Shown: positions 1,585 to 10,672 of the stretch, one piece after another
How the letters are laid out: the number at the start of each line of letters is the position of its first letter
How positions within the stretch are numbered: the stretch's first letter is position 1
Assembly: GCA_021324975.1 (NCBI GenBank)
Contig: JAJPIA010000141.1
Coordinates: 1-64,000, forward strand
DNA length: 64,000 bases
DNA from: Bacillota bacterium
Lineage (GTDB): Bacteria; Sysuimicrobiota; Sysuimicrobiia; Sysuimicrobiales; Segetimicrobiaceae
Direction of reading: 5' to 3'
The notes under the pieces: generated by a model
The model's database searches: none
What the model saw: the letters and a program-made list of their open reading frames with translations, nothing else
What the model was told of the DNA's origin: nothing
Translations under genes and position numbers: made by a program

Positions 1585-1611
1585 TGTCAGGAATGTCCAT
1601 ACACCCGCGTC
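1585..1611 (+). promoter_or_regulatory. Promoter-like site S, upstream of the sigma/TPR/Lon-CARF operon
   Basis: TGTCAGGAA (1585-1593), exactly 14 bases, then CGTC (1608-1611). The same motif with the same spacing recurs upstream of the leader elements in the island. GGAA plus CGTC is the usual kind of -35/-10 pair for ECF sigma factors. The site is about 218 bases before the sigma gene start, which suggests autoregulation by the sigma factor it precedes. Confidence 0.7.
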
Positions 1612-1729
1612 AGCAGAGTACCATGACGCTCTTGTGGGCTTTCTCCCGGGTGACTGCGCGCTACGAAAGCAGGGGGCGCCGCTCTCGAGCGCAAAAGATG
1701 GGTCGGGTTCTAGGGATTCTGGGCCCCAT

Positions 1730-1760
1730 GGCGGCGCCGGCGAGGTGCCCCGGCGCCGCC
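1730..1760 (+). other. Perfect inverted repeat in the long 5' leader of the sigma operon
   Basis: GGCGGCGCCGG (1730-1740) pairs with CCGGCGCCGCC (1750-1760) around a 9-base loop, an 11-base-pair GC stem with no following T run. It lies between site S and the first gene of the operon, where no gene is seen (1444-1828). It could be an attenuator or a protein site; only the structure is certain. Confidence 0.5.
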
Positions 1761-1828
1761 GGACGGGCCCGGCATGCGTCCGCCCGGATTCAGGCGGTAC
1801 GCACATGCGCGCGTGACACGGGGTGTGG

Positions 1829-3034
1829 ATGGAGCGATCGGCTCACTCGTATGGCTCCACGGTGCCTGCCGGCGACACCGGCAGGACCGGACCGCACCAT
1901 GCGGATCGAGCCGACGCGCCGCACGTCGGCCCCCCGCGCGCTCATCGGTTCGACCCCGGCGACATCCAAAGCCTGGCCTCGCCGGACCCCGAGACCCGCG
2001 CATCGGCGTGGGAGCGTCTCTACACGGAGGACTATGTCCTCTCCGTATCGACCGGGAGCGCGACGCCTCGAGACACCTGGCAGGACCACGGCTCGTTCGA
2101 ATGGGCCGGGTACGCCGTGAGGGTCGCGCGCGTCCTCGAGCCGAGATTTCGGATCCGGGAGGGGGCGGCATTGCGTCCGATCGGAGACCCGGAGGATTTT
2201 GCGCAGGAAGCATGGCTGCGGCTGGGCGTCCGGGTCCGGAAAGAGCCGCTCGAGCTGCGCCCCCCCGATCTTGTTCGGGGATTTCAAGCGTATCTCGCCA
2301 GGACTGTCCGCAACGTCATCCTCGATGCGCGGCGCAAACTGAAGGGACAGCCGAGCGCGGCGGCGCAGCTTCGGCGGCTCCTCGCCCGATGCACGTCCGA
2401 CGCCGAACGGTACACGTTGCAGTCCGCGGTCGACCTGGCGCGCGAGGGCGAGCGCTGGGACGACGTGGCGGAGATCGCACGGCGTACGGGCCAAACGCAT
2501 GCTACCGTGGCCGAGATCCTGACCCGGGTCACGCGGCTTCGGTCGGCCGTGGGAACCGCGTCACAAACGGCCGGCGGCGACGACCCCCGGCGCACAGCCG
2601 AGGTCCGGCGCGCGCTCTTCGAATATGCCAAGACGTTGTTCCGGGAGGGCACGAAAGCATACTGGGTCGCCAAGGCAGTCCTCGACAGCGATTTGACCGA
2701 AGACGATCTCAAAGGGAAGGGTTCCCTCGACCACGTGAAGCTCATGGATGTTCTGGATCGATTGGGCCAGCCGTGGACCTCACAGGATTCGCGCACCCGC
2801 GCCACCGCGCACCCCGTCCACGCGCCGGGCCTCCCGGAGGCGGGCAAATGCCCGCAGTGCCGCGCGGCGCTCTACCAGCAGGCGTCCAGAGTGCTCCGGG
2901 CGATTCGTGGCCATGCCGACGCGAGGGCCTTGTGGTTGCGCCTGTCACAGGAGCGTACCCTCGCCCAAGAGGCTGCCGCGCGCGACGCCGCGGCACAGGC
3001 ACTAGACTTAGCCGACCCGTGGGAGCCGGAATGA
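1829..3034 (+). CDS. ECF-like RNA polymerase sigma factor
   Basis: A 401-residue protein with sigma-70 family features. Residues about 120-172 resemble ECF region 2: PEDFAQEAWLRL, then GFQAYLARTVRNVILDARRK, which parallels the 'DAEDLVQE.FL' and 'WL..IARN...D..R' of RpoE-type factors. Residues about 211-242 (DDVAEIARRTGQTHATVAEI) could be the region 4 helix-turn-helix. A long C-terminal extension carries a CPQC pair (341-344). ATG 1829 is chosen because GGGG lies about 7 bases upstream; GTG 1823 and GTG 1862 are alternatives. The stop overlaps the TPR gene (ATGA), so the two are translationally coupled. The promoter-like site S upstream matches the six sites in the island, making this the obvious candidate to read them. 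That link is inference. Confidence 0.75.
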   Translation: MERSAHSYGSTVPAGDTGRTGPHHADRADAPHVGPPRAHRFDPGDIQSLASPDPETRASAWERLYTEDYVLSVSTGSATPRDTWQDHGSFEWAGYAVRVARVLEPRFRIREGAALRPIGDPEDFAQEAWLRLGVRVRKEPLELRPPDLVRGFQAYLARTVRNVILDARRKLKGQPSAAAQLRRLLARCTSDAERYTLQSAVDLAREGERWDDVAEIARRTGQTHATVAEILTRVTRLRSAVGTASQTAGGDDPRRTAEVRRALFEYAKTLFREGTKAYWVAKAVLDSDLTEDDLKGKGSLDHVKLMDVLDRLGQPWTSQDSRTRATAHPVHAPGLPEAGKCPQCRAALYQQASRVLRAIRGHADARALWLRLSQERTLAQEAAARDAAAQALDLADPWEPE

Positions 3035-5301
3035 GCCGGGAGCGACGGCGACATGCCAAGCGATCCCGTGCCCGGGGGCCGGCCCAGGACCTCCCGGAGC
3101 GCCAGGCCGAGATCCAGGCCGACATTCATCGGCTCGATAGGGAGCTTGATCGGCCCCGCGCGTCGGATGCGTGGCTCGAGGATGCGGCGCTGGTGGCGAG
3201 CGAACCCATGCTCGGGCATCGGCCACGCGCCGCGGAGCAGGCCGCGCGGCAGCTGGCCGCGATCGCCGCGGTGCGTTCGCTCGACCTCGCCATCGAGGAG
3301 CTCACCGACCGTGTCGCGCTTCCGCTGGCGCGGCGGGCCACGTGGGCCGCGATTGGAGGAGCGGGTGCAGAGGCCCGCAGACGAGTGTTGGATGCGGTGG
3401 CGTCGCAGCCCGACATCGCGGGGAATCCTCTCGTGCGGCAGCACGCGGGCCTCGATCCTTTTGTTCGACCGGACGTGCCCCCGCGGGTGCTCGTGCTCGA
3501 TGAGGGGCTCGCCGCGCCGCTGCTGGAAGACCTCTTGATCGCCCCGGGGCGGCCGGTGGTGGTGCTGTCGGCCAGCGCAGCGGATTGGACGCACCCCGAT
3601 CCGCCGGTCGAGGCCCGCACGGTTCGCCTCCCCGATGACGCGCCGGGCGGGTATGCTCCGGCACCCGCCATCGACGAGATCATGAGTTCGCCCACGCTCT
3701 CCCACGCGTGCGCGCTTGCCGAGTGGGGGATCCCGGCGCCGTTGCGCGTGCTCGCTGTCGCGGCCGGAGACGGGGGGGCGATGGCGCGGTTGGAATCGGG
3801 CGGTTTGTTCGCCGTGCAAGACGCGCCGATCGGCCCCGTCGCGGTGGCGCGGAGCGACCGTTTCCTGAGCGATCTCGGGCGGCGACCGGATTGGCGCGAG
3901 CGCCGTGGCGGATTCTTGGATGCGATCTGCGCCGCGCTCGCGGTCGCCGAGGCGGGAATCGCCGTGGCGCTGTTGCACAAGCTGTTTCTCGCGGGTCAGG
4001 AACGGCTCGGCGCGATGCTCGGGAGCGCAATGGCCGCGCGCCTCATCGGGGACGAACCGACGCGCGTGCCCTCGTGGGCCCGCGTGCTCTGCCGTCTCGG
4101 GCTGGCCGAACTCGTCCGCCCGGCGCTCGAGCGCGCGGTCGCGGAGAACCCTCACGATCGCGTGCTGCGCTGCGAGCGGGCGCGGACGCTCTACGCGCTC
4201 GGCCGGGGACGCGAGGCCTGGGAGGAGACGGAGCAGCTCGTACGGGCGGGTGTCGCGGACGTGCACGTGTGGCGCGTCCGCGCGGAGCTGGAAGAAGCGC
4301 AGGGCCGTTTGGAGGATGCGGACCGGAGCCTCGGGCGCGCGTTGGCCGTTGATCCGGGGAATCCAGCCTTGCTCGTCGCTCGAGGCCGCCTTGCCGTGAG
4401 GCGGCGGATGGGCGACGATGCCGACCGCTATTTCGGGCGTGCACAGGAGGAAGCCCCGGGCGCAGCCACGATTTGGCACGCTTGGGCCGCCGCTCTTTCG
4501 GAGCAGGGGCGGTTTAGCGAAGCGCGGCCGTGCCTGGAGCGCGCCGCCGGTATCGAATGGTGGAACGAGCGGCATCGACCCGAGGGTGCGGCCGCGGCAC
4601 TCTGGGCCGGCGGGGTCGAGGTTGCCGCGGCGCCGGCCATGCCGACCTCGGACGCCCAGGACGACCCTGAAACGATGCGGCTTCGCCCGCAGTTGGCCGT
4701 TGCGCGGGAGGACCCGGCAGATGCGGCCGCGCTGGTGGAGGACGTGATCGCAGCGGCCGACAACCCGGAGGTTCTCGAGAAGGCCGCCGACGTGGCGAGG
4801 CGCGCGGGACGGTTTCACGCCGCCGTGCGCGCGCTGCGCCAGGCGCTCCGGCTCGCCCCGAGACGCGCCGAGCTGCACGCGGCATGGAGTGCTCTGCTGG
4901 GGCAGGTGGGGCGGGTCGTCGAGGTGGGCGCGCCTCGGTCATTCGCGCCTTCGAGCGGGTCAGGGCTGGGCACCGTCTTTGCTGCGGACACGCCGGTGTC
5001 CGCAACTCCCGCGCTGATGTACACCGACCGTGATCTCCGTGTTGCAGTCGTCGAGGCCGCGGAAGGCGACTACGTGGTCGTCGCCGAACGGGCTCGCCGC
5101 CCGGTGGAGGGAGCGCTCGTGACGTTGCTGCAACGTGATCCGTCAGGCCAGTGGCAGCAACGCGCGGCGGGGTTGACGGGGCAGGACGGCGAAGGCCGTG
5201 TCGAGCCGGCGGAGGCCGTCCGCGACGTGACGCGATCGCCGGCGGCCGACTACACATGGCACATCCTGCTCCCGCCCACCGATACAGATGGCCGCGGATG
5301 A
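3031..5301 (+). CDS. TPR-repeat protein, candidate inhibitor or scaffold of the sigma factor
   Basis: A 756-residue protein starting with an ATG that overlaps the sigma-factor stop. The N-terminus (1-30) is very basic, followed by a helical region and an alpha/beta stretch (about 150-310) that I do not recognise. Residues about 360-650 are tetratricopeptide-like repeats, for example LERAVAENPHDRVLRCERAR, LGRALAVDPGNPALLVARGR and LRQALRLAPRRAELHAAWSA. The last 100 residues (from about 655) look like a beta-sandwich (LRVAVVEAAEGDYVVVAERA). Its place between a sigma factor and a Lon-family protease is the place of the anti-sigma CalpT in the CalpL/T/S system, so it may hold the sigma factor until cleaved. 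No sequence similarity to CalpT is claimed. Its end overlaps the next gene by 14 bases. Confidence 0.8.
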   Translation: MSRERRRHAKRSRARGPAQDLPERQAEIQADIHRLDRELDRPRASDAWLEDAALVASEPMLGHRPRAAEQAARQLAAIAAVRSLDLAIEELTDRVALPLARRATWAAIGGAGAEARRRVLDAVASQPDIAGNPLVRQHAGLDPFVRPDVPPRVLVLDEGLAAPLLEDLLIAPGRPVVVLSASAADWTHPDPPVEARTVRLPDDAPGGYAPAPAIDEIMSSPTLSHACALAEWGIPAPLRVLAVAAGDGGAMARLESGGLFAVQDAPIGPVAVARSDRFLSDLGRRPDWRERRGGFLDAICAALAVAEAGIAVALLHKLFLAGQERLGAMLGSAMAARLIGDEPTRVPSWARVLCRLGLAELVRPALERAVAENPHDRVLRCERARTLYALGRGREAWEETEQLVRAGVADVHVWRVRAELEEAQGRLEDADRSLGRALAVDPGNPALLVARGRLAVRRRMGDDADRYFGRAQEEAPGAATIWHAWAAALSEQGRFSEARPCLERAAGIEWWNERHRPEGAAAALWAGGVEVAAAPAMPTSDAQDDPETMRLRPQLAVAREDPADAAALVEDVIAAADNPEVLEKAADVARRAGRFHAAVRALRQALRLAPRRAELHAAWSALLGQVGRVVEVGAPRSFAPSSGSGLGTVFAADTPVSATPALMYTDRDLRVAVVEAAEGDYVVVAERARRPVEGALVTLLQRDPSGQWQQRAAGLTGQDGEGRVEPAEAVRDVTRSPAADYTWHILLPPTDTDGRG

Positions 5302-6787
5302 CGGTGGCCGCTTCCTTCGTGTAATCGAACGCGCTGGGGCGCTGTTTGAAGACGGCGCGCCGGTGGTCGCGGCGCGCACGCTGGTCGGGTGCATGCCGGG
5401 GATGTCCCGGCTCGAGTGCAGGCTGTCCTGCCACGTGCTCCGCGCGGCCGTCCGGCAGGCCGGCCGGTGGACCGACTCCGAGCGCGCGGCCGTCCGTGCC
5501 GAGTTGAACCGGCTGTCTGCCCCGGGCCCGCTTGCCTCGGAGCATCGGACGCTGGTGTCCCTCCTCGATGCAACGCCGCTCCGCAAACCCGGGACGCCCG
5601 TGATCGGCCGCGCGAACGTGCTCGTCACCGCGCGCGACGACGGTGTGGGGCAGTACGGGCGCGTCGTGCATCTCGACGTCTTTGTGCGTCCGGGGGGAGG
5701 GAGCATCCGGTTCGAGCAGGCGAGCGACGACCTGGCCCAATTTCGAGGTTTCTACCAAGGGGTCTTGGCGGCCGAAGAATATCTTCTCCGGCGAACCCGG
5801 GGATCGCTCGCCGCCGCGCTGTACCTTCACGCCGGCTCCGTGCGCGGGCTCATGCCGCTGCTGCGGCGCGGATCGCGGCTGTCCGGGGCGTCACTTGGGC
5901 TGAGCACCGCGATGGCGGCGCTGTCCGCTTTTTTGAATCTCGGGCTTCCGGAGGATGTTGCATTTACTGGCGGCGTCGATCCGCGCGGCCGGGTTGACCC
6001 GGTGGGCGACGTCACCACCAAGCTGCAGGCGGCTCAGGAGCGGGGGGTCGGGCGAGTGTACATCCCGTTGGGCAACGCGGACGCGATCACGGCGCTCGTT
6101 CGCCCGGGCATGAACGTTGTGACCGTCGCGACGATCGACGATGCGGCGTCACAGGCGTGGACGTCCGATGAGATAGAGCGCTCCCTGGATCGGTTGCACA
6201 GGATCGCGCCCAGAGCGTCCGAGACCCCCGCGCTCCACAGCGAGCGCTCCGCGGGGACGCGCCGGGTCCTCCTCAGCTGGGTAGGCAGAGCCGATCCGTT
6301 CGGGGAATACATGGATGCCGCGGCCGGGGACACGTCCGTGGAAGTTGTGGAAGAGGGTCCGCTGCTCACGCTTTGCCGGATTCTCCGACCGGACGCCGTT
6401 ATGCTGTTCCACACGACAGCTCCCGACCGGCGGAACGATTACACGGACCGGGCGGCCGAAGTCGAGCGCGTGATCGGAGAGATGTTGCCGGGAGCGCCGG
6501 TCCACCTTCGACCGCTGCCGGCGGTTCGAGATCCGAGCGATTACGCCCAACTGGTGCCCGCCCTACGCCGGGACGTTTCCGGCATCGTGGCCGCGGCATC
6601 CCGAGAGGCGGATCCCACGGAGTTTGTCGTGAACCTGTCCTCCGGGTCACCCCAGATGGAAACGACCTGGCACCTGCTTAAAGCCTGGCGCGTCATCCCC
6701 GCGCGCCTCTTCCAGGTGCGGGAGGCGCGGTTCGCGGGCGCGGGCGAGGCGCGCGTCCGCGAGGTCGTGCTGCCGTCATACGTGTGA
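5288..6787 (+). CDS. Lon-type Ser-Lys protease fused to an RtcR-like CARF domain
   Basis: A 499-residue fusion. The middle part matches the Lon proteolytic domain: SGASLGLSTAMAALSAFL places the catalytic serine at S202, and TGGVDPRGRVDPVGDVTTKL places lysine at K245. The 43-residue Ser-to-Lys spacing equals that of E. coli Lon (S679/K722), so the dyad appears intact. There is no AAA+ ATPase. Residues about 325-499 form a CARF-like Rossmann domain: an opening strand VLLSWVGRADPF, a DPSDYAQLVPAL helix, and the ligand-loop motif EFVVNLSSGSPQM followed by VIPARLFQ. This order closely matches the CARF domain of RtcR (DPWDFEEVY, HITTGT, PARLLQ). CARF domains bind cyclic oligonucleotides or RNA ends, so the predicted role is a ligand-activated protease in the cytosol. 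It is translationally coupled to the TPR gene. The protease target and ligand are unknown. Confidence 0.85.
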   Translation: MAADDGGRFLRVIERAGALFEDGAPVVAARTLVGCMPGMSRLECRLSCHVLRAAVRQAGRWTDSERAAVRAELNRLSAPGPLASEHRTLVSLLDATPLRKPGTPVIGRANVLVTARDDGVGQYGRVVHLDVFVRPGGGSIRFEQASDDLAQFRGFYQGVLAAEEYLLRRTRGSLAAALYLHAGSVRGLMPLLRRGSRLSGASLGLSTAMAALSAFLNLGLPEDVAFTGGVDPRGRVDPVGDVTTKLQAAQERGVGRVYIPLGNADAITALVRPGMNVVTVATIDDAASQAWTSDEIERSLDRLHRIAPRASETPALHSERSAGTRRVLLSWVGRADPFGEYMDAAAGDTSVEVVEEGPLLTLCRILRPDAVMLFHTTAPDRRNDYTDRAAEVERVIGEMLPGAPVHLRPLPAVRDPSDYAQLVPALRRDVSGIVAAASREADPTEFVVNLSSGSPQMETTWHLLKAWRVIPARLFQVREARFAGAGEARVREVVLPSYV

Positions 6788-6898: not shown

Positions 6899-9085
6899 AT
6901 GCCAGCCGGGACGGTCAAATGGTTCAGCGTGGCAAAAGGATACGGCTTCATCACTCCGCAGGACGGGGGCAACGACATCTTCGTCCACCGCACTGCGATT
7001 CTGGGCGACGGCCACAGGGCGCTCACCATGGGCGACAGGGTCGAGTACGAGATCACAGAGGGGCAAAAGGGCCCGCAGGCGGTGAGCGTCAGGATCGTCC
7101 CGAATGCCATCTCGGAGGAAGTCCAATCAAAGATCTTCGTTCTCGCGGGTGTCAAAGAGCTCGCGCTGCGGGAAGTTCAGAGCGCGCTGGCCCCGATGGT
7201 GTTACAGCAACTCGAAGCGCTGGAGAAAGCCGTCCCGGACGGTGACTGGTGGGCGGCGGGCGTTATTCCCTATCTCACCAAGCAGGATTGGCGAAATATC
7301 AGAAGCGGCGCGCGGCCGGACAATGTCCCGTCCGCTCAGGGCAAAGAGTGGTTCGCAAAGAAGCTGGAAGATGTGGGCTTCTTACTGAGATATCTGAAGA
7401 CGGAGGGGCGGCGGGAGGACGACGACACCCCGAGGCAGGAGTCCGGGCTTTCCGTCTGGTCGATCCTCAGATTTGGCGAGCGGTTCCGGAACCGACGTGG
7501 AGAGCCTCTAAACTTCCCGGGAGAGATCGAGACCCTTCACCAGTTCCGCAACGACATGTCGCACGTCAAGCCCGACAAATGGAGAAGCGACACCGATGAT
7601 GCGATCACCGCGGCGGAGCGGCTCTTTGAGAAGCTCCAGCTGCCCGATCACTTACGGGCCGTCGCCTCCCTGAGGCGGGTGAAACCCATCGTTAGGGGCG
7701 TGATCGAGCGCCTCAAGCCCGATTTGCTCACGCATCCCGGCGCGATCCTCGCTGTGCAACCATATGCCAGCATCGCGGACCTGCGGGATGCCAAGGAGAG
7801 CGGCGAACTCCAGATCTTGGAGGGGGCAACGCAAAGGGTCACGGTCAAGGGGACATTTGCTCCCCGCCTGCTCCTCGACCGTTTCCGCCTGTCGCAGAGA
7901 AAGGACGCGTCCCCGAAAAGACGCTCGGGCGCATGGCGAACCGACCTGCAACGCTGGCTCTTTCGTGGGTTTGAGCACTGGGCCCCGTCGTGGGATGCGC
8001 GAGACGCGGTGTCGGCGCCCGCCGGGGACAAGCCGGAACTGGTCGTGGGCCAACTCGTCGACGACGGCCGCGATGAAGGCGAATCCGTCTGCGTCGTCCT
8101 GCGCGGCTCGCACGCGAGAACGGCGAAGGGCATGCTCCAAAAAGGAATGCCGGACCAGCTCGCTTGTTTCACGGCGGAGCTGACCGGGCGGCTCGCTTAC
8201 CAGATTGAGGTCGCCGAGTTAGAGCAGCTCCGCGGATCCGTCTTCAGCGGCAAGGACTTCTGCATTGTGGTCGACGATAGGGACGGCGGCTTCACACCCA
8301 AGGGAGCACCAGAGTCCTATACCGGGTACCTGTGGAAGTGCATTGCGCCGGAGAAGTGGATCGACGGCAAGCGCTACCTTCACTTCCAGGATGTGATCTT
8401 CGTCTGGGAGCACATCGAATTGACCAACTCCGAATGTGTGAAGTGGGCCCTTGAGAGCATCGACACCAAGTGTGCCTGTTTCGCGAGGAGTGCGGACTAC
8501 GGCGCCTTCAAGCTCCTGGACAAATCGGACGCGATTGTCCATGGCGAGCGAGACCTGCCGTGGCGACTCTATGATCTGCGCGACGAGCCGGCACCGCCGT
8601 CATCGCCGTCGACGGCCGGCGCCCGGTGGATTGTTCCGGGGCAGGGAATCGGCAAGCTCCGGCTCGGCGCGACGATTGACGGCGCGGTCGCCGCGATGGG
8701 CAGGGACGCGGATCATCAGCGTGGGGCGAAGCAGGGCACGATCTACCAGTGGATCTTGAGCGGGCCGGGCGGCGCACCGGAGACGCCATACGTCGCGATC
8801 ATTGTGGACTCCGGGACGGGACGCGTGGACACCGTGGAGATCTGTGGGGCCCCTGAGTTTACGACGCGGGACGGCCATCGAGTTTCCGACAGCGTGGCCG
8901 CGTTCATCGAGGAGTTCGGTCAACCGGCCTCCTCGCGGCAATCCACGACCGAGCAGCTGTGGGAGTTTCGAAACGGCGCCTACGTCGCGACCAAGCCCGA
9001 TTCGGACGTCGTCGCGAAAGTGGGCGTCACCAATCGATCCCAGCAAGGCACCGTGCCGCGAAGTGGCGAGTCCCGCGATGCATGA
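6899..9085 (+). CDS. Cold-shock domain fused to a HEPN domain and a C-terminal OmlA/BLIP-like region
   Basis: A 728-residue fusion. Residues 1-66 are a cold-shock domain with both RNA-binding motifs (KGYGFITP and DIFVH). Residues about 100-250 look like a Swt1-type HEPN domain: [18 protein letters not shown] early and [10 protein letters not shown] with the RNase motif R217-x4-H222. HEPN proteins commonly cut RNA in defence and toxin systems. Residues about 260-590 are not recognised. Residues about 608-705 begin [20 protein letters not shown], a pattern typical of OmlA/BLIP-like domains. The gene follows the Lon-CARF gene by 111 bases with no leader element or site S copy between, so it may be read with that operon. 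Predicted role: an RNA-binding, possibly RNA-cleaving effector. Activity is inferred from one motif. Confidence 0.75.
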
Positions 9086-9148: not shown

Positions 9149-10672
9149 TTAGCGTCGCGCGAGCGTGTGGTTCACGCGTCTACCAAGGCTGCGCCACGCT
9201 ACCAGACCGCCGGGCATCGCGGTAATTTGGGCTCTGGCATCCGCGAACAACGGAGAGCGCTCCGGGCGCTCGATACCGTACACCGCGCGATAGATCCAGC
9301 TGAGCGCCGAGAGCAGCGCACGTTGCGGCAATTGCGGCGCCCCGTACACCCGCCCGAATTCCTTGTACATGAGGCGGAGGGCCGGGGCGTCCGCCGGGTG
9401 CGGCTCGCGCCCCGGTAGGGCGGGTTGCCGGTACGTGACCGCCGCTTCGTGAAACCCGAGTTTCCGAAAGATCCGGCCCTGCGGCCCGCGTGGGTCGCAC
9501 TCAACGTACCAGCCCGTCGCCCCCAGGCCGTCCCGGACCATTTGTTCTTCGATGCGCGCCACGAGCGCGCCGAAGCGGCCCGTGCCCCGGAGCGGAGGGC
9601 CGAAGGCGACGTAACCGCCAAACCCCGCGCCCGGCAGCGTAAAGAACGACGCCATGCCGCCCACGCTGCCTGTGGGCCTCGCGCGCAACGCCCACAGGTG
9701 GTACGCGTAGCGGCGGTCCCGCCTCGCGCGTGAGAGCAACGCGGCGAATGCATCGGACCTGATGCTGGTTGCGCCCGCCGCAAACGCACTCGTGTACAGC
9801 GTTGTGACGCGACTCAGATCGGCATCGCGCGCGCCGGTGATCTCGTGGACGTGGAGGTCCCGCCCCGGCACCCGGCCTAGGTACGCGCGCAACGACAGGA
9901 GCGGAACCGCGCGGCGGCGCGCGAGATACCGGCGCATCTGCTTGTATTCTGCCGACTGTGCGGGACGAAGCGGCATCATCGCCCACCGGATGTACTCGTG
10001 CACGGCGCGCTCGACCACGCGTGAGGGCACGTGTTCCCGGAGCGCCTGGTTGATCGGCTTGGCCGCCAGCAGCAGATGCGTGACCGGGCGCTGTACGCGG
10101 GACAACGCGGGCTGTACGTAAGGGAAGTCCAGCTTGCGAAATCCCCACCCATCCCAGATGCCGAGACGGTCGAACGGGTCCGGGTATGCGTGATCGTCCG
10201 TGAATTTGAAGGGATCTTCAAGCTCGGCCAGCATGAGATCGAGGCCGCGGCCCAAGCTGCGCCGGGCGTCCGCGGCGGCCACGCGCTCCGCCCATCGCAG
10301 CATGCGTGAACCCAGCCGGTACCGTCGCCATCCCGGGGCGGTCACGATGAACTCCACGATACCGGCGTTGGGCTGCGCCAGGTAATCCATGATGACCCCG
10401 GCGATGGGCCGGTCGCGGTGCCGTGCGATCAGGATGTGATAGTTGTTGGGACCGTAGCCGCCCCGCGCCTTGAAGGCAAGGTATCCCTCCAGCCTCTCCA
10501 CCGCTTCCTGCTCATCGGGCTGCGGGAACGCGGGCCGGTACGTTTCTTCGTAAAAGCGGCGGAGGATGCCCCGATCCTCCTGCGACACCGTGAGTTCGCG
10601 GAACGAGAGGGCGAGCGCGCGGTTCGCCGCGGCCCTGCTTCGCGATCGCTTCGTGCGCATGATTCCCGCCAT
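9149..10672 (-). CDS. Large GNAT-like acyltransferase, probably tandem domains
   Basis: A 507-residue protein on the minus strand, convergent with the CSD-HEPN gene. The N-terminal part (about 25-160) has a GNAT-like plan with VEFIVTAPGWRRYRLGSRML, where the acetyl-CoA loop is expected; the second part (about 270-425) repeats it with GFGGYVAFGPPLRGTGRFGA and ends in a 'YVECDPRGPQGRIFRKLGFH' segment typical of motif B. It would transfer an acyl group to an unknown small molecule or protein. The gene has neither a leader element nor a motif copy in its own orientation, and it points away from the tandem sites A and B, so it may not belong to the regulon. Confidence 0.6.
   Translation of the reverse strand: MAGIMRTKRSRSRAAANRALALSFRELTVSQEDRGILRRFYEETYRPAFPQPDEQEAVERLEGYLAFKARGGYGPNNYHILIARHRDRPIAGVIMDYLAQPNAGIVEFIVTAPGWRRYRLGSRMLRWAERVAAADARRSLGRGLDLMLAELEDPFKFTDDHAYPDPFDRLGIWDGWGFRKLDFPYVQPALSRVQRPVTHLLLAAKPINQALREHVPSRVVERAVHEYIRWAMMPLRPAQSAEYKQMRRYLARRRAVPLLSLRAYLGRVPGRDLHVHEITGARDADLSRVTTLYTSAFAAGATSIRSDAFAALLSRARRDRRYAYHLWALRARPTGSVGGMASFFTLPGAGFGGYVAFGPPLRGTGRFGALVARIEEQMVRDGLGATGWYVECDPRGPQGRIFRKLGFHEAAVTYRQPALPGREPHPADAPALRLMYKEFGRVYGAPQLPQRALLSALSWIYRAVYGIERPERSPLFADARAQITAMPGGLVAWRSLGRRVNHTLARR

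Follow-up and report, generated by a model that had tools for sequence, protein, structure and literature searches.

Can an operon that encodes a sigma-like protein, a TPR protein and a Lon protease fused to a CARF domain act as a ligand-gated proteolytic switch for transcription? The question is raised by three adjacent genes (the trio) within a 64,000-nucleotide stretch of DNA (the window) from a bacterium of the phylum Sysuimicrobiota (GenBank assembly GCA_021324975.1, contig JAJPIA010000141.1, positions 1 to 64,000). In the CalpL/CalpT/CalpS system, binding of cyclic tetra-adenylate (cA4) by a SAVED domain activates Lon, whereupon the anti-sigma protein CalpT is cut and CalpS is freed (PMC11417357). 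An earlier interpretation made solely from the letters of the window (the sequence-only reading) proposed that the trio performs the same three roles with a CARF sensor in place of SAVED. Our analyses favour a switch of this kind, to which we assign a probability of approximately 0.6.

The third gene (5288..6787, + strand) encodes a protein of 499 amino acids (P0003) that comprises an N-terminal region, a Lon protease domain and a CARF domain. The core of the Lon S16 domain (residues 195-290; 5870..6157) matches Pfam Lon_C (PF05362) with an E value of 6.9e-10, which is over the cut-off, and also matches the LonB-like structure PDB 1xhk (E 2.5e-9; profile-based E 3.7e-23). Ser202 (codon 5891..5893) aligns with the active-site serine of LonB relatives and Lys245 (codon 6020..6022) with the active-site lysine, and the two residues correspond to S190 and K233 of L045, one of the related loci described below. 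The catalytic pair and its spacing of 43 had been placed correctly from the sequence. The CARF domain (residues 325-493; 6260..6766) is recognized by the PADLOC models CARF1 (E 1.4e-23) and RtcR_PspF2 (E 1.7e-10) and by the NCBIfam model csm6 (TIGR02672; E 8.5e-14). It carries a DPSDY motif at residue 415 (6530..6544), the ligand-loop motif NLSSGSPQM at residue 449 (6632..6658) and PARLFQ at residue 471, and the patterns DP-[TS]-DY and SSG-[TS]-PQM are present in all six Lon-CARF proteins. This motif order had been described as RtcR-like, which is borne out because the CARF1 model, run against 386 genomes, recovered CARF-AAA-HTH proteins with matching DPTDY and SGTPQM motifs; DPTDY is found in most RtcR_PspF relatives. 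We therefore classify P0003 as a Lon-CARF fusion with an intact Ser-Lys pair. A third protein devoid of a Lon or a CARF fold had been named as an outcome at odds with the proposed switch; as judged from sequence, both families are represented.

All three open reading frames (ORFs) lie on the + strand and their ends overlap. The first spans 1823..3034 or 1829..3034, depending on whether GTG at 1823 or ATG at 1829 is the start codon, and not the 1585 from which the operon had been said to run. It meets the second (3031..5301) at an ATGA junction (3031-3034), and the second and third share 14 bases (5288-5301). Hereafter the window genome (96% complete) is termed G000 and its sister genome (94% complete) G002, and loci in other genomes are given L-numbers. 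The G002 copy of the operon (L044) has the identical gene order, with protein identities of 85%, 80% and 87% for genes 1, 2 and 3, which agrees with the earlier description of three coupled genes. Substitutions between the two copies are concentrated at codon position 3, and the ratios of nonsynonymous to synonymous substitution rates (dN/dS) are 0.24, 0.31 and 0.24. Because of this third-position excess and these ratios, all three ORFs are judged to be real genes under purifying selection. The distribution of the operon is narrow, as full-length gene 3 occurs in only two of the 43 genomes examined from the phylum and is not found in the third genome of the genus (G001). Viral, plasmid and phage collections yielded ordinary Lon matches only, or nothing.

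In a scan of 84,980 species genomes, complete Lon-CARF fusions from beyond the genus appeared at three loci (L045, L046 and L047), hosted by Syntrophorhabdaceae and related deltaproteobacteria, and a profile search of that class added a fourth (L126, genome G393). A profile built from these four relatives aligns with P0003 without interruption over about 275 model positions, beginning in Lon, crossing the linker and reaching the end of CARF (126.8 bits, E 2e-37), a score far exceeding those of proteins with Lon alone or CARF alone. In all four loci the gene order is the same: a sigma factor, an anti-sigma-like protein, Lon-CARF and a TraT-like lipoprotein. The assignments of the first two genes are based on profile matches. 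The L045 sigma protein exceeds the cut-off of TIGR02937 (sigma70-ECF; E 2.7e-14), region 4 (Sigma70_r4_2) is recognized in the L045 and L047 proteins (E 6e-9 and 4e-9), and the second gene of these same two loci encodes a zf-HC2 zinc finger of the anti-sigma type (E 1.7e-4 and 6.7e-7) with which the L046 and L126 counterparts align. Moreover, the module sits beside type III machinery of the clustered regularly interspaced short palindromic repeats (CRISPR) systems. Cas10, of roughly 530 residues and with an intact GGDD cyclase motif, is encoded downstream of the module in L045, L046 and L126, and is followed by RAMP genes in L045 and L046. The L047 contig ends after the lipoprotein gene, and the region upstream of its module holds an eight-repeat CRISPR array and a CARF nuclease. 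We conclude that Lon-CARF in these relatives is the predicted protease of a sigma/anti-sigma module within a type III CRISPR locus. Homologous loci that are never linked to a sigma gene would have spoken against the proposed switch, and each of the four has such a gene upstream.

A fifth locus helps to define what the module produces. In Desulfonauticus (L051, 9165-16191), a type III locus with a DHH-like gene, Cas10 (39% identity) and RAMPs homologous to those of L045 and L046 carries a single CARF-AAA-HTH activator of the sigma-54 type in the place otherwise occupied by the sigma/anti-sigma/Lon-CARF trio. Because this activator fills the position of the trio, we take the arrangement as support for transcription as the output of this slot. 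The same observation, together with the sigma and zinc-finger anti-sigma-like genes directly upstream of Lon-CARF in all four relatives, bears on whether P0003 might instead be a toxic effector, such that the activated protease breaks down proteins of the host or releases a toxin from the gene 2 product and gene 1 merely regulates the operon. Host killing by protein cleavage has been suggested for predicted CARF-Lon fusions (PMC9704534), the gene 1 product matches sigma models weakly, and the N-terminal domain of the gene 2 product belongs to an unknown family, all of which would accord with toxicity. Given the genomic company of the relatives, we regard a toxic role as improbable.

The deltaproteobacterial loci also encode components that are of separate interest. 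A DHH-like protein of about 280 amino acids with an NFDHHDPE motif is encoded upstream of the module (L045:157-1008, L046:2118-2954, L047:3510-4346) and in the Desulfonauticus locus (L051:9165-9998). It has no match in Pfam (L045 and L047 copies), PADLOC (L045 copy) or NCBIfam (L047 copy), and may be a phosphoesterase by which the messenger is removed. A 666-amino-acid CARF protein of the Csx1 / CARF4-PDDEXK type (L047:664-2664) lies beside the CRISPR array and represents a second effector of that locus. The RAMP genes of L045 (6750-9372) appear to belong to an unusual compact type III system; one RAMP protein is 648 amino acids long, and the neighbouring RAMP gene shows a weak match to the type III-E gRAMP model. 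The sigma protein of the same locus weakly matches a III-E sigma model.

If the trio operates in the manner of the Calp system, the TPR protein encoded by gene 2 would hold the sigma-like gene 1 product inactive. A ligand derived from RNA, most probably an oligonucleotide of cyclic or linear form, would bind the CARF domain of the gene 3 product and thereby activate its Lon Ser-Lys protease, which would then cut the gene 2 product, perhaps near its C-terminal domain. Once released, the sigma-like protein would turn on a regulon for stress or antiviral defence. What is read from the DNA is the operon itself, the Lon and CARF domains with the Ser-Lys pair undamaged, and the recurrence of sigma, anti-sigma-like and Lon-CARF genes beside Cas10 in other bacteria, and from these we infer the role of gene 2, the binding of a ligand, the cleavage event and the regulon.

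Several observations weigh against such a switch. Gene 1 encodes a protein of about 401-403 amino acids (P0001) in which residues 122-174 (2186..2344) resemble sigma region 2. The match to Sigma70_r2 (PF04542) is seen in both orthologs, with an E value of 1.3e-4 for the window copy (22.1 bits, under the cut-off of 24) and 5.8e-5 for the G002 copy, and the match of P0001 to TIGR02937 (E 1.5e-4) likewise falls below the curated cut-off. Besides region 2, profile searches detected a faint MarR-type helix-turn-helix (MarR_2) and did not recognize region 4. Thus, P0001 is likely to be a sigma factor, although the call is not firm and is weaker than the ECF-like assignment in the sequence-only reading, of which the region 2 resemblance survives. 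P0001 was also considered as a homologue of the sigma genes of L045-L047 and was rejected as such, because the profiles of the two groups did not match each other (hhalign E 0.3, no hidden Markov model match).

The 756-amino-acid product of gene 2 (P0002; 3031..5301, + strand) presents similar difficulties. Its TPR region is secure (residues about 382-616; 4174..4878; Pfam TPR_2, TPR_19 and TPR_14, with E 5.9e-14 for TPR_2), as had been stated earlier, but TPR proteins serve many roles. The preceding N-terminal domain (about 370 residues) has a relative only in G002 among 373 genomes searched, and profile searches of P0002 recognized no anti-sigma domain. A C-terminal segment (5026..5235) resembles the anti-sigma-like proteins of L045-L047 weakly and suggestively, with shuffle z scores of 4.7 for the window copy and 6.6 for the G002 copy. 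However, profile comparison did not match P0002 to those proteins (hhalign E 0.49, no hidden Markov model match), and the ends of a few unrelated ORFs reach a score similar to that of the window copy. We therefore make no claim of homology, even though the shuffling test was passed. The placement of a TPR protein in the inhibitor slot stands as a matter of gene position, and position together with the C-terminal resemblance is suggestive of the inhibitor role itself. In addition, the window and deltaproteobacterial Lon-CARF groups do not resemble each other in their N-terminal regions, and efforts to model the structures or complexes of the trio proteins gave no confident result. AlphaFold2 models of P0001 and P0002, each built with a single ortholog, have predicted local distance difference test (pLDDT) scores of 43 and 42, which are too poor for a fold search. 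The general logic of sigma, inhibitor and Lon-sensor with CARF in place of SAVED recurs in L045, L046, L047 and L126, whereas the sigma and anti-sigma assignments in the window itself are weak.

The source of the signal is a further point against the switch as proposed. The window contains no CRISPR-like array, as had been noted from the sequence, and searches for Cas10 palm2, RAMP and SMODS synthase genes gave no match in G000 or G002, although such genes may reside in the missing few per cent of these genomes, or other synthases may exist. The same RAMP search was positive in the genomes of L045-L047. These searches thus revealed no recognized source of a cyclic oligoadenylate. The lack of Cas10 and RAMP genes and the restricted occurrence of gene 3 in the phylum would fit a type III CRISPR accessory module that, having lost Cas10, survives in decayed or dormant form and has ceased to signal. 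We consider such decay very unlikely, since the three genes are intact, dN/dS lies at 0.24-0.31 between G000 and G002, and the catalytic and CARF motifs are kept.

That no type III or SMODS synthase was detected would also fit a CARF domain that, along the lines proposed for RtcR, responds to the ends of damaged RNA, as the sequence-only reading had suggested, or to a partner protein, in which case the trio would be a regulator of RNA repair or translation stress unrelated to oligoadenylate signalling. Oligoadenylates do not activate the RtcR of E. coli, whose CARF domain binds transfer RNA fragments (PMC9650030); the match of the P0003 CARF domain to RtcR_PspF models points the same way. RtcB is encoded in the window genome, but it is present in all six genomes tested, including that of the sister G001, which does not carry the operon, and we set its presence aside as uninformative on RNA repair. 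A tree of 60 CARF domains places the window domain in the Csm6/RtcR_PspF part, nearest to Csm6-like CARFs (modest support, 88/76), with which it has the PQME form of the motif in common, and this position does not favour an RtcR-type ligand. The tree neither establishes nor rejects monophyly of the CARF domains of Lon-CARF proteins (approximately unbiased test, p-AU 0.27). With four other Lon-CARF loci in type III CRISPR contexts, we find sensing of RNA ends unlikely as an account of the trio, but the ligand of the favoured switch may be either a cyclic oligoadenylate-like molecule from an unrecognized source or RNA ends of the kind proposed for RtcR.

The trio had also been presented as an independent form of the Calp logic. 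Because its Lon-CARF relatives are part of type III CRISPR loci, we view it as an offshoot of signalling of the CRISPR type and not clearly as an independent invention, although Cas10 and RAMP genes were not detected in the window genome. A more specific possibility, which we offer tentatively, is that a transcription branch of type III CRISPR systems (sigma, anti-sigma and Lon-CARF) has become free-standing without Cas10, employs a TPR protein as its inhibitor and is triggered by an RNA signal, of endogenous or phage origin, that does not come from a known oligoadenylate synthase.

On the downstream side of the operon, a 728-amino-acid protein with an N-terminal cold-shock domain (6899-9085) is encoded between Lon-CARF and a GNAT-family gene (9149-10672), and is absent from this position in G002. 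The GNAT gene has no relative outside G002 at E <=1e-30 in eight other genomes of the genus or family, and so this flank of the operon is variable. The use of conserved flanks as a test for an insertion site was abandoned, as the GNAT neighbour occurs in G000 and G002 only among ten genomes.

Comparison with known systems clarifies what is distinctive about the trio. As in CalpL/CalpT/CalpS, a Lon protease that ends in a sensor domain of the CARF/SAVED superfamily is encoded with a sigma factor, here a sigma-like protein, and with its inhibitor, here a putative one, and cleavage of the inhibitor is proposed to free sigma. Unlike CalpL, P0003 carries a single CARF domain rather than SAVED; SAVED_LON models match its Lon part only (residues 197-254), and its Lon profile matches LonB (E 4e-23) more closely than CalpL (E 1e-3). 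The putative inhibitor has TPRs in the window and a zinc finger in L045-L047; a 23-kDa part of CalpT, by contrast, is reported to be MazF-like (PMC9704534). The Calp system is linked to a type III CRISPR locus in which Cas10 is active, a linkage seen in L045, L046 and L126, whereas G000 and G002 gave no match to Cas10 palm2 or RAMP models.

Other systems share fewer features with the trio. CARF-Lon fusions classified by PADLOC as CARF_m2--CARF_LON (PDLC01981) likewise join Lon and CARF in a single protein, but this model matches P0003 in the Lon part only (residues 206-274), and the CARF domain of P0003 belongs to the CARF1/Csm6/RtcR_PspF group. The sigma-54 activators RtcR and RtcR_PspF (CARF-AAA-HTH) have a CARF domain akin to that of P0003, in which DP-T/S-DY and SGTPQM motifs occur, and a transcriptional output. 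However, RtcR acts directly via its AAA+ domain, in contrast to the protease and sigma-70-like protein of the trio, and the CARF domain of P0003 is C-terminal, with the stop codon following and no AAA+ or HTH domain in the protein. The type III-E CASP system (Csx29 TPR-CHAT protease, Csx30 and CASP-sigma) also uses a protease to cut the inhibitor of an extracytoplasmic function (ECF) sigma factor, much as proposed here for the sigma-like protein. Its protease is of the CHAT type and is activated by Cas7-11 with target RNA (PMC10028731) rather than by a CARF ligand. In the literature searched, no account of Lon-CARF proteins encoded with sigma and anti-sigma genes came to light; since that literature did not include the principal papers on CARF classification and on Calp, priority is not established. 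CARF-Lon fusions as such are already known as predictions.

CARF-Lon fusions have hitherto been listed as predicted host-killing proteases, and their linkage to sigma and anti-sigma-like genes in four further genomes points to a response at the level of transcription. The Calp logic would then exist with a second type of sensor and with at least one, and probably two, other kinds of inhibitor. The CARF sigma-54 activator that occupies the same slot of a homologous Cas10 locus suggests that there are interchangeable routes by which the same messenger can be converted into transcription. Finally, the version encoded in the window, in a genome without detectable Cas10, makes CARF signalling outside CRISPR with a different ligand directly testable.

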